This document shows, in pieces, positions 25,414 to 47,348 of a stretch of 64,000 nt of DNA. The position numbers and the translations under genes are program-made. The DNA comes from Rhodocaloribacter litoris (GTDB lineage Bacteria; Bacteroidota; Rhodothermia; Rhodothermales; ISCAR-4553), in the NCBI RefSeq assembly GCF_011682235.2, contig NZ_CP076718.1, forward strand, positions 1-64,000. The letters run 5' to 3'. The notes under the pieces were generated by a model. That model worked only from the letters and a program-made list of their open reading frames with translations, ran no database searches and was not told the DNA's origin. How positions within the stretch are numbered: position 1 is the stretch's first letter; each line of letters begins with the position of its first letter.

Positions 25414-25443
25414 CCCCGATCCGCTCACCCATCCGCATCCACC

Positions 25444-26633: not shown

Positions 26634-28737
<2,104 letters not shown>

Positions 28738-30777: not shown

Positions 30778-31493
30778 ACGATTTTACCGAACCCCGCCGC
30801 GGCGGCACGCTGGACGGGTCGGTGCAGCCGCCCTATCTGTACGCCCCGTACCGGGCCACCGTCAAGCGCGCCCCGCACCGGCCGTTGATGCCGCTGCCTC
30901 ACACCCTCTCGGAGCGCACCGGGCCGGTTTTCGGGCACGAAGCCCTCCACCCCCTTGATCACGACCTGACGCGCAATGCCATCGTCAACGGAGAGCCTAT
31001 CGGCGAGCGCATCATCGTCACCGGGCGCGTCCTGGACCGTTCCGGGCATCCCGTACGCCATGCCCTGATCGAGGTCTGGCAGGCCAACGCCGCCGGACGC
31101 TACATCCACAAACTCGACCAGCACGACGCTCCCCTCGACCCCAACTTCGCTGGCACCGGACGCGTCCTGACCGATCAGGATGGGACGTACCGCTTCATCA
31201 CCATCCGGCCGGGTGCCTATCCCTGGAAAAACCATGACAACGCCTGGCGCCCCTCCCACATTCACTTCTCAATCTTCGGCACCGATTTCACGCAGCGCCT
31301 CGTCACCCAGATGTATTTCCCCGGCGACCCGCTGCTGGCCCTTGACCCGATTTTCAACAGCATTCCGGATGAGAAAGGACGCCAGCGCCTCATTGCGGCC
31401 TATGCCCATGACGTAACCGAACCCCTGCATGCGCTGGGGTACCGGTTCGACATCGTACTGGGTGGGCGCTCTCAGACGCCGTTTGAAGAATGA
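30774..31493 (+). CDS. pcaH: Protocatechuate 3,4-dioxygenase beta subunit
   Basis: A 239-residue catalytic subunit that opens protocatechuate by ortho (intradiol) cleavage to 3-carboxy-cis,cis-muconate. The non-haem Fe(III) ligands are all present: Y110 (GRYIHK), Y149 (GAYPW), H162 and H164 (RPSHIHFS). It works as an alpha/beta oligomer with PcaG, whose start overlaps this stop. Confidence 0.96.
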   Translation: MNDFTEPRRGGTLDGSVQPPYLYAPYRATVKRAPHRPLMPLPHTLSERTGPVFGHEALHPLDHDLTRNAIVNGEPIGERIIVTGRVLDRSGHPVRHALIEVWQANAAGRYIHKLDQHDAPLDPNFAGTGRVLTDQDGTYRFITIRPGAYPWKNHDNAWRPSHIHFSIFGTDFTQRLVTQMYFPGDPLLALDPIFNSIPDEKGRQRLIAAYAHDVTEPLHALGYRFDIVLGGRSQTPFEE

Positions 31494-32092
31494 AACGAGC
31501 AGCCGTGACGTCCGAAAACGCCATGCAACCGACGAGCAGCCAGACGGTCGGCCCCTTCTTCCACGATGCCCTCATCACCGGCGAGGCGCAGCGCATCCTG
31601 GCCGCACCCGGAGCCCGAGGGGAACGCATCTACATCGAAGGCACCGTCTATGACGGCGACGGCCTTCCCGTACCCGACGCCCTCGTCGAAATCTGGCAGG
31701 CCGACGCCGCCGGACGCTTCCCCCACCCCGCTGACCCCGAGTACCGGCTGGCCGACCCGGCCTTCCGCGGCTTCGGCCGTTCTGACACCGCGAACGACGG
31801 CCGCTTCCACTTCGAGACGATCCGTCCAGGCCGTAGAACCGGGCCGGACGGCGACGGACACGCCCCTCACGTCAACGTTCGTGTCTTCGGCCGGGGGCTG
31901 CTTGTTCACCTCGTCACCCGCCTCTATTTCGAAGATGAGCCGACCAACGCCACCGACCCCGTGCTCGCGCAGATAGCTCTGGACCGGCGATCGAGCCTCC
32001 TGGCACGGCGCGTGGCCGACGGACCACCCCCATGCTATCAGTTCGACATCCGGCTTCAGGGAACCGGTGAAACCGTCTTCTTCGACCTTTGA
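31490..32092 (+). CDS. pcaG: Protocatechuate 3,4-dioxygenase alpha subunit
   Basis: A 200-residue subunit homologous to PcaH (VEIWQADAAGRFPHPADP; ETIRPGR; HVNVRVFGRGL) but without the full Fe ligand set, as is normal for the alpha subunit, which shapes the active site. It overlaps pcaH by 4 bases. An internal ATG at codon 12 (MQPTSSQTVGPFF) is an alternative start closer to that of other PcaG proteins. Confidence 0.94.
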   Translation: MKRAAVTSENAMQPTSSQTVGPFFHDALITGEAQRILAAPGARGERIYIEGTVYDGDGLPVPDALVEIWQADAAGRFPHPADPEYRLADPAFRGFGRSDTANDGRFHFETIRPGRRTGPDGDGHAPHVNVRVFGRGLLVHLVTRLYFEDEPTNATDPVLAQIALDRRSSLLARRVADGPPPCYQFDIRLQGTGETVFFDL

Positions 32093-32114
32093 ATCGCGTA
32101 ATCACCCGGTCCGT

Positions 32115-33473
32115 ATGGCGCTCTCTCCCACCGACTCCCACCTCTTCGGTGCCCTGTTCTCCGACGCGGAGATGGCGGAGCTCTTCTCCGACGCAGCCTG
32201 CATCCGGAGCTGGCTCGACGTTGAAGCATCGCTCGCACGGGTGCAGGGGCGTCTGGGTGTGATCCCGGCCGAAGTGGCCCAGCACATCGATGCCGTGCTG
32301 GCCAATCTGCCCATCGACCCGGACGGGGTACGGGCAGGCATCGCACGGGATGGCGTGCCGATCGCGGCGCTGGTGGCCCAGGTGCGGCAGGCCGTCGACC
32401 CGGAGGCGGCCCCGTACGTCCACTGGGGCGCCACGACACAGGATGTCATGGATACCGGGCTGGTGCTCCGGCTCCGCGCGGCGCTCCGTGTGCTCGAAAA
32501 CCTGCTCGGCGACGTGATGAGCCGGCTCGCGGAGATGACCCGCGTTCACCGTACCACGCTCATGCCGGGACGAACCCACGCGCAGCACGCCGTCCCCATC
32601 ACCTTCGGGCTGAAGGTAGCCGGCTGGCTCGCGCCGCTGATTCGTCACCGCCGGCGGCTGGCAGAACTGCGCCCCCGGCTGCTCGTCGTCCAGCTCGGTG
32701 GGGCCGCCGGGACGCTGGCAGCCCTCGACCAGCGGGGACCGGATGTGCTGCACGCCCTGGCGGACGAACTGGGGCTGGGTGTCCCCCTCCTCCCCTGGCA
32801 CACCCAGCGCGACAGCCTGGCCGAGCTGGCAGGCTGGCTCTCTCTGGTCTCCGGCTCGCTCGGTAAAATGGCCCAAGATCTCATCCTGCTCGCACAGAGC
32901 GAAGTGGATGAAGTCCACGAGTCCTCCGAGGTCGGGCGAGGGAGCTCCAGCACGATGCCCCAGAAGCACAACCCCGTTGCCAGTGAAGTCATCCTCGCAG
33001 CAGCCCGGACGAACGCCACCCTGTTGGGTGCCCTGCACCACGCCCTCGTCCAGGAACATGAACGGGGCACACATGGCTGGCAGATGGAATGGATGGTGCT
33101 CCCACAGATGCTGGCCCTGACGGCAGCGGCCCTCCGGCAGGCCGCCTTCCTGGGACGGCACCTGGCCGTCGACGTGGAGCGAATGCGCCGGAACGTGGCG
33201 GACTCGCAGGGCATGCTGCTGGCCGAAGCGCTCCGTCTCGCCCTGGCCCCCCACCTCGGTGCCGACGCGGCTCGACAACTCATCGCCGAGGCTGGCCGCA
33301 TCGCCCGTCGTGAGGGATTTCACCTCGTCGAGCTGGTTCGTTCCCGGACCGACGCCCCGGTCGACTGGGCGATCCTTCGCGACGAATCGACCTACCTGGG
33401 CGCTGCCGATGCCTTCATCGAACGCGTGCTGGCGGAGGCCGCGGACCTTCTCGACACCCCACCCCCTTCCTGA
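32115..33473 (+). CDS. pcaB: 3-carboxy-cis,cis-muconate cycloisomerase
   Basis: A 452-residue member of the fumarase/aspartase superfamily that closes 3-carboxy-muconate to 4-carboxymuconolactone. The superfamily signature [11 protein letters not shown] is at about residues 277-287, and [16 protein letters not shown] carries the conserved His. I chose ATG 32115 ([12 protein letters not shown]); a start 16 codons earlier adds residues with no family match. Confidence 0.94.
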
Positions 33474-33496: not shown

Positions 33497-34765
33497 ATGC
33501 AAGACGTCGTCATCGTCAGTGCTCTCCGTACTCCCATCGGCCGGCTCGGCGGTGCACTGGCCGCGGTCCGCCCGGACGATCTCGCGGCACTCGTGATCCG
33601 TGCCGCGCTCGACCGGGTCGGGCTCGAGGGAGACGAGGTGGACGAAGTGGTCCTCGGCTGTGCCAATCAGGCCGGTGAAGACAATCGGAACGTGGCCCGG
33701 ATGGCGCTACTCCTGGCTGGCCTGCCGGACCACGTGCCGGGGGTCACCGTCAACCGGCTGTGTGCGAGCGGGCTGACCGCCGTCAACGTGGCCGCCCGGG
33801 CGATCCGCGCCGGCGAGGGCGACGTGTTCGTGGCCGGCGGGGTCGAGAGCATGACCCGTGCGCCGTACTCGATCCCGAAGAACCCGCAGGCGTTCGGGCC
33901 GCCCGGCAACCAGACGGCCTGGGACACAAGCCTGGGCTGGCGCTACCCCAACCCGAGGCTCGCCGCACGCTTTCCGCTCGAAGCCATGGGCGAGACGGCC
34001 GAAAACATCTATGCGCTCAGTTGCACCGGGGCGCTTGCCGGAGGCGAGATCACCCGCGAGGAACAGGACCGGTTTGCCCTCCAGAGCCATGCCCGGGCCG
34101 TCGCCGCCCTGAACGCGGGACGCTTCGTCGACGAGATGGTCCCCGTCGAGATCCCCCGGCGGAAGGGTGATCCCGTCCTCGTGGACACCGACGAACATCC
34201 CCGTTGCACCCGGACGGAGCACGGGTTCGAGCTGGCAACGAGCCTGGAGCATCTGGCGGCCCTGCGACCGGCTTTCCGCGAGGGGGGCACCGTCACGGCC
34301 GGCAATGCCAGCGGTCTCAACGATGGGGCCTGTGCTCTCGTGCTCATGTCGGCCCGGAAAGCCAGCGCACTGGGCCTGCGGCCCCTGGCACGATGGGTAG
34401 CCTCAGCCGCGGTGGGCGTGGATCCCCGTGTGATGGGGCTAGGCCCCGTGACCGCCACACACAGGGCCCTCGCCCGGGCCGGAATCACCCTGGACGACAT
34501 CGACCTGGCCGAGGTCAACGAGGCCTTTGCGGTCCAGGCGCTGGCCGTGCTCCACGAACTCGGCCTGAGCGAGGCCATCACGAACGTCAACGGCGGTGCG
34601 ATCGCACTCGGTCACCCGCTCGGCTGCTCCGGGGCCCGCATCCTCACCACGCTCCTGCACGAGATGCAACGCAGGGCACGTGCCGGCGCGCGGATGCGCT
34701 ACGGGCTGGCGACGCTCTGCGTCGGCGTCGGGCAGGGAGAGACCACTATCATCGAACGTTGCTGA
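33497..34765 (+). CDS. pcaF: 3-oxoadipyl-CoA thiolase (acetyl-CoA acyltransferase family)
   Basis: A 422-residue thiolase with the nucleophile C89 ([12 protein letters not shown]), [22 protein letters not shown] with the catalytic His, and C-terminal LCVGVGQGE with the second Cys. In this operon it would cleave 3-oxoadipyl-CoA to succinyl-CoA and acetyl-CoA. Thiolases are hard to assign by sequence alone; context makes PcaF the best reading. Confidence 0.9.
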
Positions 34766-34767
34766 CC

Positions 34768-36123
34768 ATGCGTACCGTCCCTGTGATCACGGCCGAGGAG
34801 GCCGCCCGGCTGGTTCCGCCCGGAGCAACCCTGATGGCCGGCGGCTTCGGCATGACGGGCAACCCCGTCCACCTGCTCCATGCTCTGGCCGAGCGGGGCA
34901 CGGGCGGACTGACCTATATCGGTAATAACGTCGGCGAAGCCGGCCTGGGCGGGGGACGGCTGCTCCGTAACGGCCAGATCCGCAAGGCCATCGGGTCCTA
35001 TTTCACCAGCAATCCCGAAGCGGTTGCCGCCGCACAATCAGGTGCGATCGAGGTACAGCTCCTGCCGCAAGGATCGCTGGCCGAGGCCATCCGGGCCGGC
35101 GGCGCCGGCCTGGGCGGATTCTACACCCCGACGGCGGCCGGCACCCTCCTGGCCGAAAGCGCCGAGACCCGTGAGATCAACGGGATACCGCACGTGTTCG
35201 TGCCGGCTCTTCGCGCCGACGTGGCCTTCATCCGCGCCTGGCGAGCCGACACGGCCGGCAACCTCGTCTACCGGATGACCGAACAGAACTTCAACCGGGC
35301 CATGGCCATGGCGGCCGACCTCGTCATTGCCGAAGTGGAGGAGATCGTGCCTGTCGGCATGCTCGACCCGAACGAGATCCACACCCCCTGCCTCTTCGTG
35401 GACTACCTCGTACAGGCCCCTCTGACGCTCGACGACCTCGGCTCCTCGGCCTCGGTGACCACCAGTGCCCGGCGAGCGGACGATGCCCGCATGCTTATGG
35501 CACGACGCGCCTTCGCCGAACTGAAGCGCGGCGACGTGGTCAACCTAGGCATCGGAATCCCAACCCTCGTGGCCGACCTCATCGGCCCGGAAGACGGAAT
35601 CATCCTCCACACCGAAAACGGAATGCTCGGCGTGGGCCCGGCCCCGAAGGAAGGCGGTGCTCTCGACTATCCCGTCAACGCCGGCAAAATTCCCGTGACG
35701 GCGCTGCCCGGTAGCAGCTATTTCGACAGCGCAGACTCCTTTGCCATGATCCGCGGCGGGCACATCGATGTAGCTATCATGGGCGGCCTCCAGGTGGATG
35801 CACATGGCAACCTCGCCAACTGGGCCGTACCCGGCCGACCGCTGCTCGGCGTGGGCGGCGCCATGGACCTCGCCGCCGGGGCCCGGCGACTCATTGTGAC
35901 CATGTTCCACACCGACCGCGACGGGACGCCGAAGGTCGTGCCCACATGCACGCTCCCGCTCACGGCGGTCGGCGCCGTCGATCTACTCATCACGGACCTG
36001 GCCGTGTTTGCCTTCGAAAACGGCGCAATGGTGCTCCGCGAAGTCATGCCCGGCGTCACGCCCGACGAAGTCCGCGCCCGCACCCCGGCCCCGTTCCAAG
36101 ACGGGACCAGCCGCCCTGCATGA
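34768..36123 (+). CDS. Fused 3-oxoadipate CoA-transferase (PcaI-PcaJ)
   Basis: A 451-residue protein joining CoA-transferase subunit A (residues 1 to about 225, [19 protein letters not shown]) and subunit B (from about 240, [16 protein letters not shown]). The catalytic Glu is in [12 protein letters not shown]. It transfers CoA from succinyl-CoA to 3-oxoadipate before thiolysis. In most bacteria the subunits are separate genes. It starts 2 bases after pcaF and ends the pca operon; the 3-oxoadipate substrate is inferred from context. Confidence 0.9.
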
Positions 36124-36203: not shown

Positions 36204-36402
36204 TATTGATGCTCCAAATGATCTTTTTTAACCATAAAAGGCTTTTGAAAAGTTTAAAAGGATTGATTTTGAAAACAACTCCCCCGATTTCGATAGGACA
36301 TCTCCAGCCGCCTTTGCTTAAAATTCTCGTAAAGAAGGCACCGATACCGGTAGCGCTTCGGTGCCACTTCTCCACTGCCAGCTCAAGTCCTCCCTCACCG
36401 CC
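36204..36402 (+). promoter_or_regulatory. AT-rich leader before the second TonB receptor
   Basis: This gap begins with very AT-rich DNA (36199-36258 has about 15 G/C in 60), with A- and T-tracts such as CTTTTGAAAAGTTTAAAA. TTGAAA near 36269 followed 17 bases later by GATAGG is a weak sigma-70-like candidate. The segment probably contains the promoter of the C-glycoside half of the locus and ends in a hairpin (36337-36365). No coding potential is convincing. Confidence 0.5.
36337..36365 (+). promoter_or_regulatory. Leader stem-loop or operator before TonB receptor
   Basis: GGCACCGA (36337-36344) pairs perfectly with TCGGTGCC (36358-36365); the 13-base loop holds a second palindrome, TACCGGTA (36345-36352). 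It ends 37 bases before the chosen ATG at 36403. It could be a regulator-binding dyad for the AraC or another factor, or an RNA leader hairpin. Confidence 0.4.
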
Positions 36403-38883
36403 ATGTGCTACCCTGCTCTTTCCCTGCCTTCATACGGCCCCGTCGCGCGTCGCGCCTGGCCGGGCTGCACGTTCTTGCTGTTCCTGGGCTTGTTCATGAC
36501 CGACCCGGGAAGTGCTTTGGCGCAAACCGTCTCCGGCACTGTGCGTGATGCCCAGGGTCAACCCCTGGCCGGTGCCACCGTCGTCATCGAGGGCACCTCC
36601 GTCGGCACCGCAACGGACGTCGACGGAAGATATACGATCCGGCTCCCGGGCCCAGGCGCTCACACCCTGGTCGTCTCTTTCGTCGGTTACGTGACGGCAC
36701 GTCGGGAGATCAACGGCGAAGGCCAGCAGATCGACTTCCGGCTGGAAGAGGCTCCGCTGATGTTGAAAGACGTGGTCGTCACGGCGGAGAACCGCACCGC
36801 ACTGGCCCAGGACGTCCCCATCGCCATGGCCCTGCTGAGCGGCGAAGAGCTCGAAACAACGGGCACGACGGACCTCTTGCAACTGCAATTCGAGGCCCCC
36901 GGGCTGCATCTCGTTCAGAACACCATTTTCAACCAGATCGGCATCCGGGGCGTCTCCTCGCAGGCCGGCGGGGAGTCCGAGCTTTCGGACCAGGCCGTCA
37001 CACTCAATATCGACGGGGAATACATCAATCGCCCGACCTCGCTCAACGCCGCCCTCTACGACCTGGAGCGGGTGGAGGTGCTCAAGGGGCCTCAGGGCAC
37101 CCTCTACGGGCGTAACGCCACGGCCGGAGCCATCAACATCATCACCAATAAGCCGGTGCTGAGACGTACCGAGGCCAGCGTCTCCGGCCAGTACGGAAAC
37201 TACAACCTCGTCAAACTCACCGGTGCGCTCAACCTGCCCCTGGGGGACGTGGCCGCGATCCGCCTGGCCGGCCTGCTAGACCGGCACGACGGCTACCGCG
37301 ACGGCGGGCCGGCCGGACGCATCGACGACGGCAACGTCATGGGGCTTCGCCTCGGCCTTCGCCTCGACCCGGCAGCGACGTTTTCCCTCTACGTCGCCGG
37401 CGAGTACAACCGCACCGATCAGCAGGCCCCCTCCCAGTACGGCGTCAACGTGGCCCAGGCTGCGCCCTCCCTCATCGGGCAACCGCCGGCCACGTTCTCC
37501 ACCGAACTCCCGAAGGACTTCGATGTGGCCACAGGCGGCTTCCTGAAGATCGACCAGTATGCCCTCCGGGGCCGCCTGCGTTACAGCTTCGGGCCGGCCT
37601 GGCTCACCTATACGGGCGGCTATCGCTACGCCGAACTGGCAGGATACCAGCCCCTGAACGGGTTTTTGCCGGAAACCTTCAGCTTCGACAACAACTTCGG
37701 CATCAATACCCACAGCCATGAACTCCGGCTCAACGGGGAAACCCCGCGGTTCATCTGGCAGACGGGTATGTTCTACGGCTACGAAAACCAGGACGTACGA
37801 CGCGGCCTGTTTCTCCCCGCCGCAGCCGGTGCCTTCGGCGGCCGCATCCCCTTCCTCAACTACTCGATCTTCGACGTGACTTCCTCAACCTTCGGTGTGT
37901 TCGGGCAGGCCACCTACAACGTCACCGAACAACTCGGGCTCACCGGAGGACTCCGGTACACCCACGACGAGAAGAAGCGCACGGGCCAGCAACTGGGAGT
38001 CCCCCCCTTCGTCCCCGGCGCACCGGCGTACTTCTATCCGGATGCCCGCCCGCAACTGAACGACCCGGGCATGGTGGACCGATTCGGCGAAGGCAACTGG
38101 AGCCAGGTAACCTGGATGGTAAACGCCGACTATGACTTCACCGAGGACAACATGGCCTATGCCAAGGTGAGCACGGGGTACAAGGCTGGCGGGTTCGACG
38201 AGCTGGGACCCTACGATCCGGAGTATCTGACCGCGTTCGAGGTCGGCTCCAAGAACCGATTCCTGGATGCCCGGCTGCGCCTCAACGGCTCGACCTTCTT
38301 CTACGCCTACCGGGATCAGCAAGTCACCGTCTTCTTCAACACCGAAATCGGAGGCACCACCCAGAACGCCGGAAGTACGAACATCTTCGGGATCGAACTG
38401 GACGGAGAGTTCCTGGCCACCGCTCGCGACCGGTTCCGCTTTTCCATCAACTTCCTGGAGGCCAAGTATCACAAATTTCCCACCCTCGTCAACGTAGTCA
38501 GCGGCGACCAGGTGAGCGTGGACCTGTCCGGCAATCGGCCCGTGCATTCGCCCCGCTGGATCCTGATCGGCGGCTATGACCGGGACGTTCCACTGGGACC
38601 AGGCATCCTCAACATCGGTGTCAAGACGCAGTACAAGTCGGCATACTACCTGACCCCCTTCAACTTCGCCATGGAGCGGCAGGATGCCTATACGAAGACA
38701 GACGTGGACGTCGCCTACCGCCATCCGGACGGACGGTGGGAGATCGGAGCCTTCGTGCACAACCTAGAGGACAACCGGATCATCACGTATGCGGCCTTCA
38801 CCGGCGGCGGCATCGACCTCTACAACTGGATCTTCGGAGCGCCTCGCACCTACGGCGTGCGGTTGAGTTACCTGTTCCGCTGA
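36403..38883 (+). CDS. TonB-dependent receptor of the C-glycoside locus
   Basis: An 826-residue outer-membrane receptor. After a signal peptide ending about SALAQ comes a carboxypeptidase-regulatory-like domain (SGTVRDAQGQPLAGATVVIE, about 42-120), then plug and barrel; the plug contains LKGPQGTLYGRNATAGAINI, a segment common in proteobacterial, especially sphingomonad, receptors. No SusD partner is present. Its position ahead of a MFS permease and deglycosidase-like genes suggests it imports the aromatic glycoside. I chose ATG 36403; a GTG at 36361 would place the leader hairpin partly in the coding sequence. Confidence 0.88.
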   Translation: MCYPALSLPSYGPVARRAWPGCTFLLFLGLFMTDPGSALAQTVSGTVRDAQGQPLAGATVVIEGTSVGTATDVDGRYTIRLPGPGAHTLVVSFVGYVTARREINGEGQQIDFRLEEAPLMLKDVVVTAENRTALAQDVPIAMALLSGEELETTGTTDLLQLQFEAPGLHLVQNTIFNQIGIRGVSSQAGGESELSDQAVTLNIDGEYINRPTSLNAALYDLERVEVLKGPQGTLYGRNATAGAINIITNKPVLRRTEASVSGQYGNYNLVKLTGALNLPLGDVAAIRLAGLLDRHDGYRDGGPAGRIDDGNVMGLRLGLRLDPAATFSLYVAGEYNRTDQQAPSQYGVNVAQAAPSLIGQPPATFSTELPKDFDVATGGFLKIDQYALRGRLRYSFGPAWLTYTGGYRYAELAGYQPLNGFLPETFSFDNNFGINTHSHELRLNGETPRFIWQTGMFYGYENQDVRRGLFLPAAAGAFGGRIPFLNYSIFDVTSSTFGVFGQATYNVTEQLGLTGGLRYTHDEKKRTGQQLGVPPFVPGAPAYFYPDARPQLNDPGMVDRFGEGNWSQVTWMVNADYDFTEDNMAYAKVSTGYKAGGFDELGPYDPEYLTAFEVGSKNRFLDARLRLNGSTFFYAYRDQQVTVFFNTEIGGTTQNAGSTNIFGIELDGEFLATARDRFRFSINFLEAKYHKFPTLVNVVSGDQVSVDLSGNRPVHSPRWILIGGYDRDVPLGPGILNIGVKTQYKSAYYLTPFNFAMERQDAYTKTDVDVAYRHPDGRWEIGAFVHNLEDNRIITYAAFTGGGIDLYNWIFGAPRTYGVRLSYLFR

Positions 38884-38958: not shown

Positions 38959-40167
38959 ATGCGCTCCGACACGCCGCCCCCCCGTGCGGGCTTTGCCCAG
39001 GGTGCCATCATCATCGGCATCAACCTGCTGCCGATGATGGCCATCGTGGCCCTGATGCCGGTGGTCCCGGCCATTCGCAACAACTTCGCCGAGCTGCCGG
39101 GCATCGAAACCCTGGCCCCGCTCGTGCTCTCGGCGCCGGGCCTGTGCGTGGCCCTCTTTTCGCCGCTGGCGGGCTTTCTTACCGACCGGCTGGGGCGACG
39201 CAAGCTACTGATGCTCTTCACCTTCCTGTACGGCGCCGGGGGCATCCTTCCCTTCTTCGTCGAGAGCTTCCCGGCCGTGCTCGGCGGGCGGTTCCTGCTC
39301 GGCATTGGCGAGGCCTTCGTCCTCACGATCGGCAATGCGCTGCTGGGTGACTATTTCGACGAAGCCGACCGGGCCAAGTGGCTCATGTGGCAGGGCATCC
39401 TCGGGTCGGCCTGCGGTACGCTGCTGCTGTCCCTGAGCGGCTACCTGTCCACCCTCGGCTGGAACTATCCTTTCCTGGTCTACGCCTTTGCCTTTGCCAT
39501 CACAGGAGGCGCCTTTCTGTTCATCTACGAGCCCCGCATCACCCGAAGCAGGACCGAAACACCGACCGGGCCGCCCCCCCCTTTTCCCCTGCGCCTGGTG
39601 CTCCGCATCGGGCTGTTCACCCTGATGGCGTCCGCGCTGTACTTCGTCTATACGTTCCACTTTGCCCTGGCCCTCGATGCCATGGGCATCACGGACAGGC
39701 AGCAAATCGGCAACTACAGCGCGGTGGCCAGTATCGCCGTGCCGATCGGGGCCATCCTGTTCAAGCTCATCTCGGGCAAAAGCAGCCGATTCCAGTTCGC
39801 CTGCCTGTTTTGCCTGGTGGGACTTGGGCTGATCGGGATCGGGCTGGCCGTCAGCGTGCCGGCCGTCGTGGCGGCCGCTTGGATCCAACAGCTCGGTGCC
39901 GGCATGGCCATCCCGGTGCTGATCGCCTGGGGCCTGCGCGAGGTGCCCCCGGCCTTCCGCGGCCGGGGCATGGGCTTCTGGGCCAGCGGGTTTTTCCTGG
40001 GCCAGTTTCTCTCACCCTTGGCCGTCTCCGCCGTGCGGGATGTGACGGGCAACCTGCTGGTGACCTTCGTGGTCTTCGGCACCGTCTGCCTGGCCGTTGC
40101 TGCGGCCAACCTGTTCCTGTCCCGGCGCGAGGTCGTCCCGGCCGGCATCCCCAGCGGCTTGCCATGA
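38959..40167 (+). CDS. MFS transporter, candidate C-glycoside or aromatic importer
   Basis: A 402-residue inner-membrane protein with about twelve predicted helices and the MFS loop signature DRLGRRKLLML (about 76-86). It lacks obvious drug-efflux features and resembles small-molecule uptake permeases. Located directly before the deglycosidase-like genes, it probably brings the glycoside from periplasm to cytoplasm. The substrate is inferred. Confidence 0.82.
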   Translation: MRSDTPPPRAGFAQGAIIIGINLLPMMAIVALMPVVPAIRNNFAELPGIETLAPLVLSAPGLCVALFSPLAGFLTDRLGRRKLLMLFTFLYGAGGILPFFVESFPAVLGGRFLLGIGEAFVLTIGNALLGDYFDEADRAKWLMWQGILGSACGTLLLSLSGYLSTLGWNYPFLVYAFAFAITGGAFLFIYEPRITRSRTETPTGPPPPFPLRLVLRIGLFTLMASALYFVYTFHFALALDAMGITDRQQIGNYSAVASIAVPIGAILFKLISGKSSRFQFACLFCLVGLGLIGIGLAVSVPAVVAAAWIQQLGAGMAIPVLIAWGLREVPPAFRGRGMGFWASGFFLGQFLSPLAVSAVRDVTGNLLVTFVVFGTVCLAVAAANLFLSRREVVPAGIPSGLP

Positions 40168-40189: not shown

Positions 40190-41182
40190 ATGAGACCTGC
40201 CATCAAGCGAGGCGTAAGCCTCTACAGTTATCAGGAGGAATATTTTCTGAGGAAGATGACGCTCGAGGACTGCATTGCGGCTGCGGCAGCGGCCGGAGCT
40301 ACCGGCATCGAGGTCGTCGGAGAGCAGATGTTTCCCGGCTTTCCCCGACTGAGCGAGGCCTTCCTCGAACAATGGTTCGGCTGGATGGAGCAGTACGGCG
40401 TCGAGCCGGTAGCGCACGACATGATGCTGGACCTGGAACCCTACAAGGGCCGGTACCTGACGCTGGACGAGCAGCTAGCGTCAGTCCTTCGCGACCTGCA
40501 CTTCGCCCGGCAGCTTGGCTGCAAAGTGGTGCGGGTCATCGTCAATGCGTCGCCGGAGCTCATGGAGCGGGCCATTCCCTATGCCGAGGAGATGGACATC
40601 AAGCTGGGCATCGAGGTGCATTCCCCCTGGCACCTTCACTCGGCCTGGATGACCCGGCATCTGGAAGTGATGGAGAAGACGGGCACGAAGCACTTCGGCT
40701 TCATCCCGGACGGCGGCGCCTTCACCCGGCGCCTGCCGCGTGTGGCCGTCGAACGCATGATCCGTGAGGGGGCTGATGAGAAGATCGCCGCTTTCGTCTG
40801 CGAGCAGCACGAAAAAGGCGTGCTGGCCGAATACATCATCGCCGAGGTAGAGCAGATGTCGAATCGCCCGATCGACCGGGCTCTGGCCATGATGACGCGG
40901 CACAACGTCTTCAGCAATCCCCGGAGCATCGAACAGTTCGAGGGACGCATCGTGCATGTGCACGGGAAGTGTTACGAGATGCTGGAAGACAGCCTCGATG
41001 GCCGACCCTACGAATACAGCATCCCCTACGATGAGATCGTGGCCGCCCTCAAGAACATCGGCTTCGACGGCTATATCTGCACCGAATACGAGGGCAACCG
41101 TCACATCCAGGACATCATGGAGGTGAACAGTGTGGAGCAGGTACGCCGCCATCAGAGGATGCTCGAACAGCTCATCGGCTAG
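40190..41182 (+). CDS. C-glycoside deglycosidase alpha-subunit-like TIM-barrel protein (copy 1)
   Basis: A 330-residue xylose isomerase-like barrel. Candidate divalent-metal ligands are E142 (GIEVH), D174 (GFIPDGG), H259 (HVHGKCY) and E299 (CTEYEG); H144 is a likely catalytic base. Large subunits of known C-glycoside deglycosidases (DgpC, CarB and relatives) are barrels of this type that, with a small beta subunit, eliminate the aglycone from a 3-oxo-C-glycoside. The adjacent gene resembles that beta subunit, and a pyranose-oxidase-like protein is two genes beyond, which strengthens this reading. A plain sugar isomerase is the alternative. Confidence 0.78.
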   Translation: MRPAIKRGVSLYSYQEEYFLRKMTLEDCIAAAAAAGATGIEVVGEQMFPGFPRLSEAFLEQWFGWMEQYGVEPVAHDMMLDLEPYKGRYLTLDEQLASVLRDLHFARQLGCKVVRVIVNASPELMERAIPYAEEMDIKLGIEVHSPWHLHSAWMTRHLEVMEKTGTKHFGFIPDGGAFTRRLPRVAVERMIREGADEKIAAFVCEQHEKGVLAEYIIAEVEQMSNRPIDRALAMMTRHNVFSNPRSIEQFEGRIVHVHGKCYEMLEDSLDGRPYEYSIPYDEIVAALKNIGFDGYICTEYEGNRHIQDIMEVNSVEQVRRHQRMLEQLIG

Positions 41183-41224
41183 CGCTTGCCGCCTTCTTTC
41201 ACCTGTAGACCCGATCCGATTCCC

Positions 41225-41614
41225 ATGTTCGAAAAGTATATGATCGTGCCCGAGGAGGCACGCAACGTCACCGAAAACGGTCGTGTCACGGGGTTCCAGT
41301 TCGGGGCACGGTTGCCCTACTACCGGGGCGTCGGGCTTTCGCTCGTCGAGGACATCCAGGTGAAGATCGACGGGGAGCCGGTCGCCCCGGAAAACCTCAC
41401 CGTTACCGTCCACGGCAACACCTACACCCTCGAGGAGATGGCACGCACCTTCGAGGACCGCTGGGAGATGGGCGAGGTGGCCCTGATCACCATCCGGCGC
41501 GAGGGAGGCCTCCCGCCGGGCGAACACACGATCGACCTGCTCCTCAACCTGCGCATCTCGTACCTGCCGTTTCCGGCGATCCGGAAAGCTACGAAGACCA
41601 TCAAGATTCCCTGA
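41225..41614 (+). CDS. C-glycoside deglycosidase beta-subunit-like protein (DUF6379 type)
   Basis: A 129-residue protein, mostly predicted beta strands, matching what I recall of the DUF6379 / C-glycoside deglycosidase beta-subunit family: start MFEKYMIVPEEARNVTENG, the segment FQFGARLPYYRGVGLSLVED, and DRWEMGEVALITI. In known CGD complexes (DgpB/CarC type) this subunit packs on the barrel and helps form the active site. The start at 41225 matches the family; an upstream GTG/ATG would add an unrelated stretch. It lies 42 bases after copy-1 alpha and 3 bases before a second small subunit. Confidence 0.8.
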   Translation: MFEKYMIVPEEARNVTENGRVTGFQFGARLPYYRGVGLSLVEDIQVKIDGEPVAPENLTVTVHGNTYTLEEMARTFEDRWEMGEVALITIRREGGLPPGEHTIDLLLNLRISYLPFPAIRKATKTIKIP

Positions 41615-41617
41615 TCC

Positions 41618-42019
41618 ATGGGCCCACTAGACCAGTTCATCCTCGCCGATGACGCCCTGACGGCCACTCCTACCGGCGGTGCCGTGGCCTTTCGCTCCCA
41701 CTGGTACCGGTCGCTGCCGCTCTCGTGCATGGAGGTTCAGTTGAGCCTCGACGGTCGGCCAATCCCCCCGGAGGCCATGACGATCGTCGTGAACGGACAC
41801 ACGTATCCGGTCGAAGCCATGCCCGGGCTCATCGACGAATGGCTCTTCATCACCGACGCCGCCACGCTCCGCTTCGCCTGTACTCCTCCACTGGAGCGGG
41901 GCCGGGCCTACGCGGTGACCCTCCGCCTCGACCTCTACCCGCCCTACATCCTCGTCGGCCCCGACCAGGAGCCGTTGCTGGCTTCCAGCACCGTTACACG
42001 AATCCTCACGGCTGCATGA
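41618..42019 (+). CDS. Second, divergent C-glycoside deglycosidase beta-like subunit
   Basis: A 133-residue beta-rich protein with the same layout as its upstream neighbour: RSHWYRSLPLSCMEVQLSLD aligns with the ARLPYYRGVGLSLVEDIQVK segment, followed by a DGRPIPPEA turn and a DEWLFITDAATLRF strand pair. It is clearly a diverged paralogue. Its stop overlaps the next alpha-like gene by 4 bases, so it most likely pairs with copy-2 alpha. Confidence 0.7.
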   Translation: MGPLDQFILADDALTATPTGGAVAFRSHWYRSLPLSCMEVQLSLDGRPIPPEAMTIVVNGHTYPVEAMPGLIDEWLFITDAATLRFACTPPLERGRAYAVTLRLDLYPPYILVGPDQEPLLASSTVTRILTAA

Positions 42020-43041
42020 CCTTCCTCAACGCCCCACCTGCCATGTCCGAAATCAAGCTGGCCACGTCGCTCTTCTCGTATGCCATCGAGTGGCAATCGC
42101 GGACCTGGACGCTGGAGGACCTGCTGGCCCGGACGCGGGAGATCGCCCTCGGTCCCGGCCTGGAGATCATCGGCTTCCAGACTCTGCGCGGCTTTCCCCG
42201 TATCACGGATGCACAGGTGGCCGAGGTGCGGGGCCTCATGGAAAAGTATGCGTTCGAGCCGGTGTGCCTGGGCGCCAACGTGGATGTCCGTCTCCGGCGG
42301 GATCGGCTCATGACGGCCGATGAGACGGTGGCCTATCTGATCCCCCAGGTCGAGGTGGCGGCCCGGCTCGGGTTTCCCGTGCTCCGGGTCCAGATGACCG
42401 CCGGGCCGGAAGTGTACCGGAAGCTGGTTCCAACGGCCGAGCGGCTCGGTGTCAGATTGGGGATCGAACTACACACGCCTTACGGGGTCGATCATCCCCG
42501 TGTGCTCGCCATGCGTGCGCTTGTCGAGGAACTGGACACACCCTATCTGGGCTTCATACCCGACTTCGGCACGTCCATGCGGTCCCTCCCCACCGCCCTG
42601 CTCGACAGCTTCCGCGCCGTCGGGGTGAGCGAGGAAGTGCTCGCCATCACCCGGGAAGTCTGGGCCCTGGACGCACCGGCACCGGAACGGTTCGCCCGGC
42701 TCCGGGAACGCGCCTCGGCCGTCGGCGCCACTCCCCAGCAGTTGGGTCGCCTCAACATGGCGCTGAGCATGTGCGGGCGACAGCCCCCCGAGCAGTGGGC
42801 CGAGATCGTGCCCCGGACGGTGCACCTTCACGGCAAGTTTTACGGCTTCGATGCGGACGGGCGTGAACCTTCGTTCGACCACGAAACCATCCTCCGGGTG
42901 TTCCTGGACGGAGGCTACCGGGGCTACATCTCTAGTGAATACGAGGGAACGGCCTTCACCGATGCCTACTCCGGCTTCGAAATGGTGCGCCGTCATCATG
43001 AACTCCTTCATTCCATTTTACAGACCCTAGAGCAGCGATGA
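42016..43041 (+). CDS. C-glycoside deglycosidase alpha-subunit-like TIM-barrel protein (copy 2)
   Basis: A 341-residue barrel related to the copy at 40190 but strongly diverged. The same ligand set is kept: E151 and H153 (GIELHTPYG), D183 (GFIPDFG), H272 (VHLHGKFYG) and E308 (SSEYEG). The ATG at 42016 overlaps the preceding stop; an ATG nine codons later (MSEIKLATSL) is equally plausible. Two alpha/beta pairs in one operon suggest different aglycones or different attachment positions, such as 6-C and 8-C glycosides. Confidence 0.75.
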   Translation: MTFLNAPPAMSEIKLATSLFSYAIEWQSRTWTLEDLLARTREIALGPGLEIIGFQTLRGFPRITDAQVAEVRGLMEKYAFEPVCLGANVDVRLRRDRLMTADETVAYLIPQVEVAARLGFPVLRVQMTAGPEVYRKLVPTAERLGVRLGIELHTPYGVDHPRVLAMRALVEELDTPYLGFIPDFGTSMRSLPTALLDSFRAVGVSEEVLAITREVWALDAPAPERFARLRERASAVGATPQQLGRLNMALSMCGRQPPEQWAEIVPRTVHLHGKFYGFDADGREPSFDHETILRVFLDGGYRGYISSEYEGTAFTDAYSGFEMVRRHHELLHSILQTLEQR

Positions 43042-44576
43042 AGGTCGATGTTCTGATCGTGGGCACCGGGCCGGTAGGGGCCACGTTTGCCCGGTTGCTC
43101 TCCGAGCGCCGGCCCCGGGCCCGCATCCTCCTGCTCGATCTCGGCCCGCGCCTGACGGCGACGGCCGGGCTGCATGTCAAAAACATCGCGGATGCGACGG
43201 CGCGTGAACAGGCCCAGGTTCGCTCCCAGGGTCCCTACCGGCATCCCTACCCCGCCGTGAGTGTCCCCGAACGGGCGGAGGCCGTCCGGGCCGGTCTCCG
43301 CCATCCCGACTTTCTGGCGCGTCCGGGCACGCACCTCGTGGCGGAGACGGAAGAGGACCTCGCCGCGACCGAGATGCCGGCGGCGGCGCTCTCGAGCAAC
43401 GTAGGCGGCATGGCGGCCCACTGGACCTGTGCCTGCCCCCGACCCGGCAACGGCGAACGCATCCCGTTCCTGGCACCGGAAGACTACGAGCGCACCCTCA
43501 CCATGGCCGAGCGCCTTCTCCACGTGCGGCAGGATGCTTTCCCCGAAACGCCGGAAGGCGCCGCCATCCTGCGCGTGCTGGGCCAGGCCCTCAATGACCT
43601 CCTTCCCCCGCACCGCAGGGTGCAGCGGATGCCCCTGGCCTGCCGTCTCGATGCACAGGGACGTCGCCACTGGACCGGCGTCGATACGATCCTGGGCGAG
43701 GCGGCCCGGCCCGGCTATGAGGGTCCCATCACGATCCGGTCCGAAACACTCTGCCGCATGCTGCTGGTAGACCGGGACCGCGTGCGGGGAGCCGTCGTGG
43801 AGGATCTCCGAACCGGAGTGCAAGAAACCATCGAAGCCCGCGTCGTCTTCGTGGCCGCCGACTCGTTCCGAACGCCGCAACTCCTGTGGGCTTCTGGCAT
43901 CCGCCCGCCCGCTCTCGGGCGCTATCTCAATGAACACCCGTTCATCTTTACGTTCGTAGAACTGCGGCCCGATCTGGTCAACCCCGAGGATGCTCCGGCC
44001 TATGACCCGGCGGCCCGTGATGATCCCACGATCGGCGTCTTCTGGGTTCCCTTCGAGGCCCCTTCCCATCCGTTCCACGGCCAGATCATGCACATGGACG
44101 TCTCCCCGCTCCAGACCCGCTCCGAGCGCGATCCCCGGCACATCGTCGGGCTCGGATGGGGACCGCTCAAGGAGATGCGGGCCGAAGACCGGATCGTGTT
44201 CTCCGACGAACGCACCGATCACCTGGGCATGCCCGCCATGACGGTTTCCTACAGCCTTACCGAGTACGACCTCGAAGCCATCGAGGCGGCCCGTGAAGAG
44301 CAGGCCCGCGTGGTGGCGGCTTTCGGGCGTATTCTCGAGGAGGGACGGCAGACGCTGATGCCGCCGGGCAGCTCGCTGCACTATTGCGGCACGGTCCGGA
44401 TGGGCGAAGTCGATGACGGTACGTCCGTCTGCGATCCGTCCTCCCGGGTGTGGGGACTCCAGAACCTGTTCGTGGGCGGCAACGGGGTGATCCCGCTGCC
44501 CACAGCCTCCAACCCCACCCTCCACAGCGTAGCGCTGGCCGTGCTGGCCTGCGACCATGCCGCCGAACTTCTTTGA
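43038..44576 (+). CDS. Pyranose-oxidase-like GMC flavoprotein, candidate C-glycoside 3-oxidase
   Basis: A 512-residue GMC oxidoreductase. The FAD motif is VLIVGTGPVGATFARLL (5-21). GMAAHWTCACPRP (124-136) matches the pyranose 2-oxidase segment in which His binds FAD covalently; here that residue is H128. Probable catalytic residues are H448 (LHYCGTVRMG) and N492 (TASNPTLHS). CarA-type relatives oxidise the sugar C3 hydroxyl of C-glycosides, making the adjacent C-C bond breakable. It overlaps the copy-2 alpha gene by 4 bases. No signal peptide is seen, so it is cytoplasmic. The 3-oxidase activity is inferred from family and neighbours. Confidence 0.8.
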   Translation: MKVDVLIVGTGPVGATFARLLSERRPRARILLLDLGPRLTATAGLHVKNIADATAREQAQVRSQGPYRHPYPAVSVPERAEAVRAGLRHPDFLARPGTHLVAETEEDLAATEMPAAALSSNVGGMAAHWTCACPRPGNGERIPFLAPEDYERTLTMAERLLHVRQDAFPETPEGAAILRVLGQALNDLLPPHRRVQRMPLACRLDAQGRRHWTGVDTILGEAARPGYEGPITIRSETLCRMLLVDRDRVRGAVVEDLRTGVQETIEARVVFVAADSFRTPQLLWASGIRPPALGRYLNEHPFIFTFVELRPDLVNPEDAPAYDPAARDDPTIGVFWVPFEAPSHPFHGQIMHMDVSPLQTRSERDPRHIVGLGWGPLKEMRAEDRIVFSDERTDHLGMPAMTVSYSLTEYDLEAIEAAREEQARVVAAFGRILEEGRQTLMPPGSSLHYCGTVRMGEVDDGTSVCDPSSRVWGLQNLFVGGNGVIPLPTASNPTLHSVALAVLACDHAAELL

Positions 44577-44589
44577 ACGAGCGAGCCCC

Positions 44590-45507
44590 ATGCCATCGAC
44601 CCGTCCCCCCACCGGCCCCGACGTGCCCACCCTGACGATGCAGACCCTCGACCGCTTCCACCACCTCCCGGAAGGCGGTCCCCTGGGCGCTTCCAGGGTA
44701 TGGGGCGGTTTCCACATCAACCGGATCGAAGACTATCTCGCCCACCTGCCGTTTCCGCTGCCGCCGCACCGCAAGGCCTTCACCGACATGATCTTCCTCA
44801 CCGGAGGCACTTCGGTCCGCTTCAAAGGGCTGACGAAATACACGTTCGGACCCGGCCAGCTCTTCGTACTTCCCGCCTACCAGATCACCGCCCACGAACA
44901 TATGAGCCCGGACGCGCGGGGCTTCTATCTGCACTTCAACCCGGAGATGCTACGCGAGCGGGGCGTGGACGACCAGCGCTTTGCTATTCTAAACTTCACC
45001 ATTCATCCGGTCGTGACGTTCCCCCCTGCCACCCGTCAGGCCGTGCTGCACCTCTTCGAGCGACTCGAAACGATCTACCAGACCCTCGATCCTCCCGACC
45101 TCGACCTGGTGACGGCCTACCTCGTCGCCCTCCTCTTCGAGGCCGATCGCTGCATGGATACGTGCACGACCCGGTACCGGAACGCCGCAGCCTACCTCAC
45201 CCAGCGTTTCAAAGATGCGCTCTCCCGCCACATCTACGAACTCCATACGGTACAGGCCTATGCCGACCTGCTGGGCGTAACCCCGAACCACCTCAACAAA
45301 TGCGTCCGCGCCACGCTAGGCCGCCCGGCCAAGAGCCTGATCCGGGAAATGATGGTGATGGAGGCCAAACACTTCCTCCGCCATTCGTCACTCCAGATCG
45401 CCGAGATCGCCTTCCGGCTCGGCGAACAATCGCCGAGCAATTTCGCCCGCTTCTTCAAGTCGGAGACCGGGCTGACCCCGCGCGAATACCGAGAATCGCT
45501 CACGTGA
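44590..45507 (+). CDS. AraC-family transcriptional regulator
   Basis: A 305-residue protein with an N-terminal cupin-like sensing domain (KYTFGPGQLFVLPAYQITAH) and a C-terminal double helix-turn-helix, first helix pair near VQAYADLLGVTPNHLNKCV and second near IAEIAFRLGEQSPSNFARFF. It lies within the C-glycoside operon and is the only regulator in the 24-kb aromatic block, so it probably senses the glycoside or a phenolic intermediate. I chose ATG 44590 over an upstream GTG-type start that overlaps the oxidase end. Confidence 0.88.
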   Translation: MPSTRPPTGPDVPTLTMQTLDRFHHLPEGGPLGASRVWGGFHINRIEDYLAHLPFPLPPHRKAFTDMIFLTGGTSVRFKGLTKYTFGPGQLFVLPAYQITAHEHMSPDARGFYLHFNPEMLRERGVDDQRFAILNFTIHPVVTFPPATRQAVLHLFERLETIYQTLDPPDLDLVTAYLVALLFEADRCMDTCTTRYRNAAAYLTQRFKDALSRHIYELHTVQAYADLLGVTPNHLNKCVRATLGRPAKSLIREMMVMEAKHFLRHSSLQIAEIAFRLGEQSPSNFARFFKSETGLTPREYRESLT

Positions 45508-45512: not shown

Positions 45513-46343
45513 ATGTCCACCCTGCTTCGCTGCCCGATCCGGCTGGTTGATCTGTCGCTCCCCATCTCCGAGCGCATCCGGGAGCCGCTCCCTACCCGGA
45601 TCGAGCGGGAGGATCATCGCACGGGCGCCCTCAACATGGCTCGGACCCTGCTGGGCGATGTCACGCCCGAAGCCTTCCCGGACGGCCTGGCCCTGGCCGG
45701 CGAGGTCCTGATGCTGACAGCCCATGCCGGCACCCACGTCGACGCGCCCTGGCACTACCATCCAACGGCCGGCGGCCGCCCCGCCCGCACCATCGACCAG
45801 CTTCCCCTTGACTGGTTCTTCCACGATGGGGTCGTGCTCGATTTCTCCGACCGGCCCGAGGGAACCTGTCTGGAACCAGAAGACCTCGAACACAAGCTGG
45901 ATGCGATCGGCTATACGCTCAAACCCTTCGACATCGTGCTGCTCCGCTGCGATGCCGACAAACGGGCCTATGACCCCGACTACGTCCGCATTCACGTCGG
46001 CGTCTCCGCGGAGGCTACGCGCTGGCTCATCGACCGGGGCATCCGTGTGATGGGGACGGACGGCTGGGGATGGGACGTCCCGCTGCACCTGCAGGTCGAA
46101 GCCTACCGGCGTCGGCCGCGCCCGGGCGTGATCTGGGCCGCCCACTTCGTCGGGATCGAGGCCGAGTATTGCCAGATCGAGAAGCTGGCCAACCTCGACC
46201 ATCTCCCTCCCTACGGGTTCATGGTGGCCTGCTTTCCGGTCAAGATCGAACGGGGAAGTGCCGGGTGGGCCCGGGTCGTCGCCCTCGTGCCCGAACAAGC
46301 AACGGATCTCCCTGCAACCCTATCGCCGCCCCCGGCGGGCTGA
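45513..46343 (+). CDS. Cyclase-family metal-dependent hydrolase
   Basis: A 276-residue member of the cyclase / kynurenine formamidase-like family. The metal motif HAGTHVDAPWHYHP (about residues 71-84) is intact, and GTDGWGWDVP and IWAAHFVG follow as in relatives. Members hydrolyse or isomerise lactones, amides and ring-cleavage products. Five bases after the AraC gene and 36 before the extradiol dioxygenase, it is likely to process a ring-opened intermediate. Exact reaction unknown. Confidence 0.85.
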   Translation: MSTLLRCPIRLVDLSLPISERIREPLPTRIEREDHRTGALNMARTLLGDVTPEAFPDGLALAGEVLMLTAHAGTHVDAPWHYHPTAGGRPARTIDQLPLDWFFHDGVVLDFSDRPEGTCLEPEDLEHKLDAIGYTLKPFDIVLLRCDADKRAYDPDYVRIHVGVSAEATRWLIDRGIRVMGTDGWGWDVPLHLQVEAYRRRPRPGVIWAAHFVGIEAEYCQIEKLANLDHLPPYGFMVACFPVKIERGSAGWARVVALVPEQATDLPATLSPPPAG

Positions 46344-46379: not shown

Positions 46380-47348
46380 ATGGCTCGCAACCCGCATTTT
46401 TTCTCCCAGCTGGCCCACGTCGAGGTACTGACCACCGACCTGAAAGCCTCCGTCGCGTTCTTCGAGGAGATCGTCGGCCTGGACGTCACCGGACATGGAG
46501 ACGGTTCAGTCTACCTCCGTGCATGGGGCGACTATTTCCATCATTCTCTCAAACTGACCCAGGCTGACGCCCCCGGCCTGGGCCATCTCGGCTGGCGTGC
46601 CGACAGCCCGGAGGCCCTCGACGAGGTGGTAGCCCATATCGAAGCCCTGGGCCTGGGCGAGGGCTGGCATGAAGGAGAGCAGGGCCATGGACGAGCCTAT
46701 CGGTTTCGCACGCCCAACGGACACGCCTGCGAGGTGTTCTGGGAGGTCACCTGGTTGCGTGAAACCGGTACGCGCGGGAGCGTCTTTGCCGACCGCTATG
46801 CGAGCAACCGGCGTCGTGGCGTGTGCCCCCGGCGCTTCGATCATGTAACGCTCAACACGGGCAACTATCCCGCCGACAAGACCTTCTGGAAAGGACTCGG
46901 CCTCAAAAACCCCGACGAGATCCGCATCAACGACGACCTGCCGCCGGTGGGAGGGCTCTTTACCGTGGGCAACCTTTCACACGATATCGCCATCTTCACG
47001 GATCCGGCCCTGCAACCTGGCGAGGGCGCTCTCAACCACGTCTGCTTCAACCTGGACAGCCGGGAGGAAGTGCTCCTGGCCTGCGACTGGTTCATCGAAT
47101 GCGGCTACCGCCTCGCCATGGGCCCCGGGCGCCATCAGGCCGACGAGGGATTCTTCATCTACGTCGACGAGCCGGGCGGCAACCGGTTCGAGTTCTATGC
47201 CGGCGCACGGCTGGTTTTTGCACCCGACCACGGCCCCGACATCCACTACCTCAAGGACAACCCGAACGATGCCTGGGGCAACTACAACCCCTGGTCCGGC
47301 GATGGAACCTTCAAACCTGAGCACGGTAGCTTCCGGCGCCAGGAGTGA
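46380..47348 (+). CDS. Extradiol ring-cleavage dioxygenase (VOC family, catechol 2,3-dioxygenase-like)
   Basis: A 322-residue two-domain vicinal-oxygen-chelate dioxygenase. The Fe(II) 2-His-1-carboxylate triad is present in the second domain: H155 (RFDHVTLNT), H220 (ALNHVCFN) and E271 (NRFEFYAG). It would open a catecholic ring next to the two hydroxyls (meta cleavage), in contrast to the intradiol PcaHG in the same locus. The partner hydroxylase at 25444 could supply its catechol-like substrate. Confidence 0.9.
   Translation: MARNPHFFSQLAHVEVLTTDLKASVAFFEEIVGLDVTGHGDGSVYLRAWGDYFHHSLKLTQADAPGLGHLGWRADSPEALDEVVAHIEALGLGEGWHEGEQGHGRAYRFRTPNGHACEVFWEVTWLRETGTRGSVFADRYASNRRRGVCPRRFDHVTLNTGNYPADKTFWKGLGLKNPDEIRINDDLPPVGGLFTVGNLSHDIAIFTDPALQPGEGALNHVCFNLDSREEVLLACDWFIECGYRLAMGPGRHQADEGFFIYVDEPGGNRFEFYAGARLVFAPDHGPDIHYLKDNPNDAWGNYNPWSGDGTFKPEHGSFRRQE

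Follow-up and report, generated by a model that had tools for sequence, protein, structure and literature searches.

A predicted C-glycoside deglycosylation module with two deglycosidase pairs, next to a putative ring-cleavage cassette, in Rhodocaloribacter litoris

The enzymes that cleave C-glycosides are already known from other bacteria. In PurABC of Paenarthrobacter and CarABC of Microbacterium an FAD-oxidase acts first and an alpha/beta lyase follows, with one alpha/beta pair described, and homologues of PurABC have been reported from Actinomycetota, Pseudomonadota, Bacteroidota and Deinococcota (PMC12724307). Among the C-glycoside deglycosidases (CGDs), AgCGD2 has E147, D179, H269, K271 and E305 as metal ligands and H149/E307 as the catalytic pair; it cleaves a C8-glycoside, while AgCGD1, MiCGD and MtCGD act mainly on C6-glycosides, and the C6 and C8 groups are said to differ by an insertion in the beta7-beta8 loop (PMC8563793). 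For the oxidation step, the available text of PMC10646112 gives the glycoside 3-oxidase PsG3Ox a catalytic pair H440/N484 and an AAHW motif that binds FAD non-covalently. Here we describe a 64,000-nucleotide stretch of the Rhodocaloribacter litoris genome (the window; NZ_CP076718.1, positions 1 to 64,000), in which five genes at 40190-44576 would follow the same two-step logic, in a phylum other than that of PurABC and CarABC. Judging from sequence and predicted fold, we consider it quite probable that they form a genuine C-glycoside deglycosylation module inside a horizontally acquired, flavonoid-catabolic island of ~23 kb.

The five genes, all on the plus strand and closely packed, fill this interval in the order alpha1-beta1-beta2-alpha2-G3Ox (i.e. 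two side-by-side pairs of adjacent CGD alpha and beta genes, followed by the glycoside 3-oxidase gene, G3Ox), and the paired arrangement was retained in relatives. This bore out the run of two barrels, two small proteins and a GMC flavoprotein that the initial annotation had described. Its wording of one overlapping gene run was correct for beta2/alpha2 and alpha2/G3Ox, which overlap by 4 bp each, but not for alpha1/beta1 and beta1/beta2, which lie 42 bp and 3 bp apart. The likely start of alpha2 is the ATG at 42043, since residues 1-9 have pLDDT below 50.

In a Pfam profile search, beta1 matched PF19906 (CGDB, 'C-glycoside deglycosidase beta subunit') with 138.5 bits (9.8e-41) and beta2 with 39.2 bits, the cut-off being 27.6 bits, and these were the sole two CGDB matches in the genome. 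Both barrels, alpha1 and alpha2, matched PF01261. Against solved structures, alpha1 gave 386.8 bits to 8qvc_A and beta1 98.8 bits (2.3e-27) to 8qvc_B, 8qvc being, by its structure title, the C-glucosyl deglycosidase of Deinococcus aerius TR0125; alpha2 gave 227.8 bits to 7dnm_A, the alpha subunit of AgCGD2. CGD beta chains were found for beta2 at 1e-6, below two higher-ranked matches that are repeats in designed proteins. The subunits of pair 2 (alpha2 and beta2) were also modelled as single chains. The beta2 model (pLDDT 92.7) had the AgCGD2 beta subunit, 7dnm_B, as its top fold match (TM 0.88), and all 17 fold matches with E<=0.001 were CGD chains. The alpha2 model (pLDDT 92.2) was closest to 7dnm_A (TM 0.91), with CGD chains making up its leading 16 matches, and it placed helices after residue 190, where the CGD lid sits. 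The small proteins, which had been put forward as CGD beta subunits, were thus both placed in PF19906, and beta2 also by its predicted fold.

We observed in an alignment of 43 alpha sequences (numbered as in AgCGD2, PMC8563793) that alpha1 and alpha2 each have all seven of the active-site residues, i.e. the five metal ligands and H149/E307. The proposal that the barrels are CGD alpha subunits agreed with these results, alpha1 being closest to the D. aerius CGD and alpha2 to AgCGD2. We conclude that alpha1-beta1 and alpha2-beta2 almost certainly belong to the CGD family with their active sites intact, and that they would cleave the C-C bond.

The flavoprotein matched the N- and C-terminal GMC_oxred families of Pfam. 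It also matched TIGR02462, but at 215 bits against a cut-off of 544.9, and a pyranose 2-oxidase identity was ruled out. Its first matches among solved structures were G3Ox/POx entries, including 8qve_A at 531 bits and PsG3Ox (7qf8_A) at 404 bits, and its His448 and Asn492 align with the essential H440/N484 motifs of PsG3Ox. Homology therefore supports its assignment as a glycoside 3-oxidase, which would oxidise the sugar at C3, and the initial annotation of a sugar-C3-oxidising enzyme was sound in this respect. The pyranose-oxidase-type flavinylation motif read in the same protein did not hold up. The motif is AAHWT (with His128), and since the identical AAHW in PsG3Ox holds FAD non-covalently, it gives no sign of a covalent flavin of the kind found with the fungal STHW, which was ruled out. 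Taken together, family membership and active-site residues support the proposed chemistry, in which C3 oxidation would precede C-C cleavage by the deglycosidases.

The tree of alpha subunits had two clades, each with a support of 100/97, one with AgCGD2 and the other with the D. aerius CGD and PuCGD. The window alpha1 grouped with Bacteroidota alpha1 proteins (100/98), and alpha2 grouped with Bacteroidota proteins (100/99) and clustered with AgCGD2 at a fork supported by 93/90. As the two clades are separate and well supported, the pairs did not arise by local duplication but represent separate lineages of long standing, and they probably differ in the preferred glycosylation position. Beta1-type sequences have three additional residues past a conserved Tyr near position 110, which are missing from beta2-type sequences. 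Since AgCGD2 is C8-selective and a loop insertion is said to separate the C6 and C8 groups, the lack of these residues in beta2 tentatively suggests that alpha2-beta2 might be a C8 enzyme, and alpha1-beta1 a C6 or broader enzyme. With a paired deglycosidase from each of two clades, a single organism would be useful for learning what determines C6 versus C8 selectivity.

The genes between 24.1 and 47.3 kb had a mean GC content at third codon positions (GC3) of 0.82, as against 0.87 for 88 coding-like open reading frames from eight other 20-kb stretches of the genome (Mann-Whitney p 5e-7, an optimistic value, since the background frames were picked by a composition rule favouring high GC3). Flanking genes of the window had a GC3 of 0.90-0.94 (one mis-framed row, LutB, being left out). 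Alpha1 was absent from all 39 relatives sampled (one from the same family, the others from the same order), and this absence, along with the Bacteroidota clades in the tree, points to a horizontal gain from, or sharing with, other Bacteroidota. We read this ~23 kb segment as a horizontally acquired flavonoid-C-glycoside catabolic island. One genome of the same order (G325) gave a CGDB match of 31.5 bits inside a 524-aa frame; this may be a chance or distant match, and it was not counted as a CGD.

The segment also carries five genes that we refer to as the cassette: an FAD monooxygenase (FMO), an extradiol dioxygenase, a fumarylacetoacetate-hydrolase (FAH) family protein, a 2,6-dihydroxypseudooxynicotine (DHPON) hydrolase-like protein and a cyclase-family hydrolase. 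The fde/ifc clusters encode an FAD monooxygenase that hydroxylates C8, a VOC dioxygenase that opens the A-ring and, not far from these, a DHPON-hydrolase-like protein; IfcA is inactive on isoflavone glycosides, for which the authors suggest interference by the sugar at position 7 or 8 (PMC11069340). An FAD monooxygenase, a VOC dioxygenase and a DHPON-like hydrolase are encoded together in the window (24292-26592, 46380-47348) and in relatives, and by this analogy the cassette appears to resemble the fde/ifc route of flavonoid A-ring cleavage. A coupling of CGD to the cassette makes sense, because the carbon attacked by the monooxygenase would become accessible once a C8 sugar is removed.

CGD and cassette genes were found side by side in distant bacteria. 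On the Deinococcus aetherius plasmid pDAETH-1 (18048-24466 of locus L034) there are alpha, beta (DUF6379), GMC oxidoreductase, VOC, cyclase, FAH and prolyl-oligopeptidase-family hydrolase genes and two FAD oxidoreductases; all have counterparts in the window, and all five cassette genes are represented. Bacillus sp. ISL-18 has the dioxygenase, hydrolase, FAH, cyclase and FMO followed by beta-alpha (5/5 cassette homologues beside CGD), while the cyclase, hydrolase, FMO and FAH (4/5) adjoin alpha-beta in Niveispirillum and Azospirillum, the former also with a very weak VOC match (23%). At least eight Bacteroidota genomes contain close relatives of the module; a Cytophagales locus (L006) keeps TonB-dependent receptor-MFS-alpha1-beta1-beta2-alpha2-G3Ox-AraC-dioxygenase-hydrolase-FMO, and other Bacteroidota have variations of it. 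A dioxygenase orthologue (63-75% identity) was present in all eight Bacteroidota CGD genomes examined, in five of them within ~10 kb of the CGD genes. In the phylum sample it was found in 4 of 394 genomes, including both with a strong CGD match (Fisher p 8e-5; 0.008 leaving out the genome of the window itself). We would put at about even the prospect that CGD genes in four or more phyla recur as a package with a cassette for A-ring meta-cleavage, forming a dedicated mobile pathway that would fully mineralise flavonoid C-glycosides, in which deglycosylation would unblock the carbon attacked by the monooxygenase and of which the window (with two CGD pairs and pobA/pca) would be the most complete form.

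Several observations weigh against the reading of the segment as a C-glycoside module within a flavonoid-catabolic island. The dioxygenase lies in another contig, or distant from CGD, in three of the eight Bacteroidota genomes, and in the window itself the cassette is divided, flanking the pca and CGD genes on both sides. On a Hymenobacter monticola plasmid (L050) and in the genome G387 (L041/L042), the cassette is accompanied by pca genes, GH106 and TonB receptors, and CGD is absent; in G371 the dioxygenase and hydrolase stand beside GH106 and GH3, again without CGD. The proposed link of the cassette to flavonoids comes from family resemblance and genomic context, and beta2, at 39.2 bits, is divergent within PF19906. 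As the cassette exists with pca and glycosidase genes where CGD is absent, it is not exclusive to C-glycosides. It is probably a general flavonoid module, to which CGD is an add-on for C-glycosides and GH106/GH78/GH3 an add-on for O-glycosides, the window having both.

The loci with the cassette and without CGD (L050, G387 and the Emticicia oligotrophica plasmid pEMTOL02, L051) carry it with its dioxygenase, hydrolase, FAH, cyclase and FMO. In L050 and G387 this is followed by pcaHGBDC-pobA-pcaIJ-pcaF, and histidinol-dehydrogenase-like and short-chain dehydrogenase/reductase (SDR) genes are annotated at L050 and L051. At three loci with CGD (L007, L008 and L011), 2-3 kb of additional genes separate beta1 from beta2, in contrast to the compact arrangement in the window. 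An unannotated stretch of ~13 kb on a plasmid of Arthrobacter sp. StoSoilB13 has eight CGD matches, four alpha-like and four beta-like, together with a G3Ox homologue; one of the matches is 96% identical to the AgCGD2 alpha subunit.

The preference for flavonoid C-glycosides as substrates has to be weighed against other possibilities. It is quite unlikely, in our view, that the module serves mainly O-glycosides of the rutin or phlorizin type, the 3-oxo-O-glycoside from G3Ox being eliminated spontaneously or by the alpha/beta enzymes and C-glycosides being a side activity. GH106, GH78, GH3 and rhamnose genes are indeed present in the same window, PurA is strongly active on O-glycosides, whose oxidised forms break down without an enzyme (PMC12724307), and PuCGE cleaves 3-keto-phlorizin (PMC10628242). 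However, spontaneous elimination would leave no need for two complete alpha/beta pairs, both with their active sites intact, relatives having O-glycoside hydrolases and the aromatic cassette are without CGD, and the solved relatives of alpha1 and of alpha2 did not include AtOGE, the eliminase dedicated to O-glycosides. The natural substrates could also be C-glycosides other than those of flavonoids (mangiferin, carminic acid, aloesin or nothofagin-type chalcones), with the adjoining aromatic genes serving other compounds. MiCGD prefers carminic acid (PMC8563793), and the D. aerius cluster, according to the title of a reference in PMC11673046, deglycosylates xanthonoids as well as C-glucosyl flavonoids. 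We find this unlikely, given that CGD is repeatedly accompanied by the FMO, dioxygenase, FAH, DHPON-like hydrolase and cyclase in distant phyla and that the fde/ifc routes, which use comparable enzymes, have flavanones and isoflavones as substrates (PMC11069340).

A different doubt concerns pair 2, which might be a relative of the deglycosidases with lyase, isomerase or hydratase activity towards the keto-sugar or a different 3-keto-glycoside. Beta2 is divergent, alpha2 departs from AgCGD2 at positions that contact the aglycone (Y17F and N248S), and several TIM-barrel isomerase homologues accompany CGD loci. Yet pair 2 has lost none of the metal or catalytic residues, its helical lid and CGD folds persist, and alpha2 clusters with AgCGD2, a proven C8-glycoside deglycosidase, which makes this alternative improbable compared with a second C-glycoside deglycosidase.

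If the module acts on flavonoid C-glycosides, a flavonoid C-glucoside would be imported by the TonB receptor and the major facilitator superfamily (MFS) carrier, and G3Ox would oxidise the C3-OH of its sugar with O2. The two metal-dependent deglycosidases, alpha1-beta1 of the D. aerius type and alpha2-beta2 of the AgCGD2 type, would then break the C-C bond in a beta-elimination that yields the aglycone together with an anhydro-hexenulose. By analogy with fde/ifc, the FAD monooxygenase may hydroxylate the freed aglycone at the A-ring carbon which a C8-sugar would block, after which the extradiol dioxygenase would cleave the hydroxylated aglycone and the FAH, DHPON-like and cyclase hydrolases would process the product. 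B-ring acids would feed PobA and the pca beta-ketoadipate pathway, for which the gene set is present; protocatechuate/pca is the reported end point of the route taken by the fde product (PMC11303751). In the literature found, the fate of plant C-glycosides after C-C deglycosylation is not established for aerobic environmental bacteria. An island with an oxidase, two deglycosidases, a putative ring-cleavage cassette and a full pca route would offer a testable end-to-end pathway that is spreading between distant bacteria.

The features of the segment are given in Table 1. A barrel resembling hydroxypyruvate isomerase (Hyi) within the pca cluster has relatives of 42-44% identity near CGD genes in Alphaproteobacteria and Arthrobacter, and is a candidate keto-glucal hydratase/isomerase with an AtHYD-like role; an AtOGE-like identity was rejected, as AtOGE (8BVK) was not among its solved relatives at 1e-5. 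The lower-GC3 island is adjoined by a block with high, genome-like GC3 (2301-23924), which encodes a TonB receptor, GH106, an AP-endonuclease-2-family barrel, GH3, GH78, a permease, L-rhamnose isomerase, rhamnulokinase, a bifunctional RhaD-SDR and LutABC, i.e. utilisation of rhamnosides (rutin-type O-glycosides) including lactate catabolism.

Table 1. Predicted features of the module and of its surroundings in the window
Feature	Coordinates	Strand	Evidence
DHPON (C-C) hydrolase-like alpha/beta hydrolase	24292..25413	+	closest solved structure 2jbw, 6e-24; adjoins CGD or dioxygenase in many relatives
FMO, putative aglycone A-ring hydroxylase	25444..26592	+	PF01494; NF005313 above cut-off; 38-61% homologues in CGD clusters of four phyla
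FAH family protein, cassette	26634..27536	+	PF01557, 8.5e-55; 42% to FAH of the Deinococcus aetherius CGD operon
PobA, 4-hydroxybenzoate 3-monooxygenase	27547..28737	+	TIGR02360, 616 bits (cut-off 538.7)
PcaD, 3-oxoadipate enol-lactonase	28745..29548	+	TIGR02427 above cut-off
Hyi-like TIM barrel within pca cluster	29554..30348	+	TIGR03234, 165 bits, below cut-off
pcaC, pcaH, pcaG, pcaB (protocatechuate 3,4-dioxygenase branch)	30367..33473	+	TIGR02425, TIGR02422, TIGR02423, TIGR02426, all above cut-off
pcaF-like thiolase and pcaI/pcaJ-like CoA-transferase	33497..36123	+	NF006551/TIGR02430; TIGR02429, TIGR02428 above cut-off
TonB-dependent receptor, putative glycoside importer	36361..38883	+	PF00593/PF07715; 51-56% homologue upstream in L006, L007, L008, L010, L011
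MFS transporter directly 5' of alpha1	38959..40167	+	PF07690; 46-58% homologue upstream of alpha1 in 8/8 Bacteroidota CGD loci, mostly adjacent
CGD alpha1, TIM-barrel subunit	40190..41182	+	PF01261; 8qvc_A match; 7/7 active-site residues
CGD beta1, DUF6379/CGDB beta subunit	41225..41614	+	PF19906; 8qvc_B match
CGD beta2, divergent second beta subunit	41618..42019	+	PF19906; predicted fold
CGD alpha2, second TIM-barrel subunit with helical lid	42016..43041	+	7dnm_A match; 7/7 active-site residues; predicted fold
Glycoside 3-oxidase (G3Ox/CGOx), GMC flavoprotein	43038..44576	+	8qve_A and 7qf8_A matches; catalytic residues
AraC-family regulator of module	44590..45507	+	PF12833; AraC homologue adjoins G3Ox in Bacteroidota L005, L006, L009, L026
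Cyclase-family (isatin-hydrolase-like) metal hydrolase, A-ring cassette	45513..46343	+	PF04199; isatin hydrolase 5nnb, 3e-11; 42-67% homologues in CGD or flavonoid clusters
Extradiol (VOC) dioxygenase, A-ring cassette	46380..47348	+	TIGR03211, 2.5e-69, under curated cut-off

When the locus is compared with described systems, the architecture of the module is not new: a G3Ox accompanied by two alpha/beta pairs is known from P. siccitolerans, and there are earlier reports of homologues in Bacteroidota. The initial annotation expected an extension of the known range of this chemistry; the module is indeed present here, but the PurABC homologues already reported from Bacteroidota (PMC12724307) and the near relatives in at least eight Bacteroidota genomes take away from that claim. 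No publication linking CGD to the cassette was found in the literature searched; the D. aerius paper lay outside this search and priority is unproven, and the coupling of CGD to a conserved ring-cleavage cassette may be the part that is new.

The fde (Herbaspirillum) and ifc (Variovorax) clusters (PMC11069340, PMC8552027), which also encode the FdeD Rieske protein and the IfcD cupins, were likened to the window by family; they have an FAD monooxygenase, a VOC dioxygenase and a DHPON-hydrolase-like protein in common with it, but they are not described with CGD. AgCGD2 of Arthrobacter globiformis (7dnm/7dnn; PMC8563793), the top fold match of alpha2/beta2, has identical metal and catalytic residues, while alpha2 is 37% identical to it overall and has F for its Y17 and S for its N248. 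The Pseudarthrobacter siccitolerans PsG3Ox cluster, as presented in the available text of PMC10646112, has, like the window, two alpha-type and two beta-type CGD genes near its G3Ox; it differs in belonging to the Actinomycetota and in that no aromatic-ring cassette is described in that text. The D. aerius C-glucosyl deglycosidase/oxidase cluster (PDB 8qvc, 8umc and 8qve; Furlanetto et al. 2024, as cited in PMC11673046) has an alpha subunit 53% identical to the window alpha1 and an oxidase 57% identical to its G3Ox. The near-identical D. aetherius cluster (98% for alpha, 91% for the oxidase) runs on into VOC-cyclase-FAH-hydrolase-FMO genes as in the window. The Deinococcus cluster has one alpha/beta pair where the window has two, an ABC importer in place of the TonB receptor and MFS carrier, and no pca genes within the 31 kb seen.

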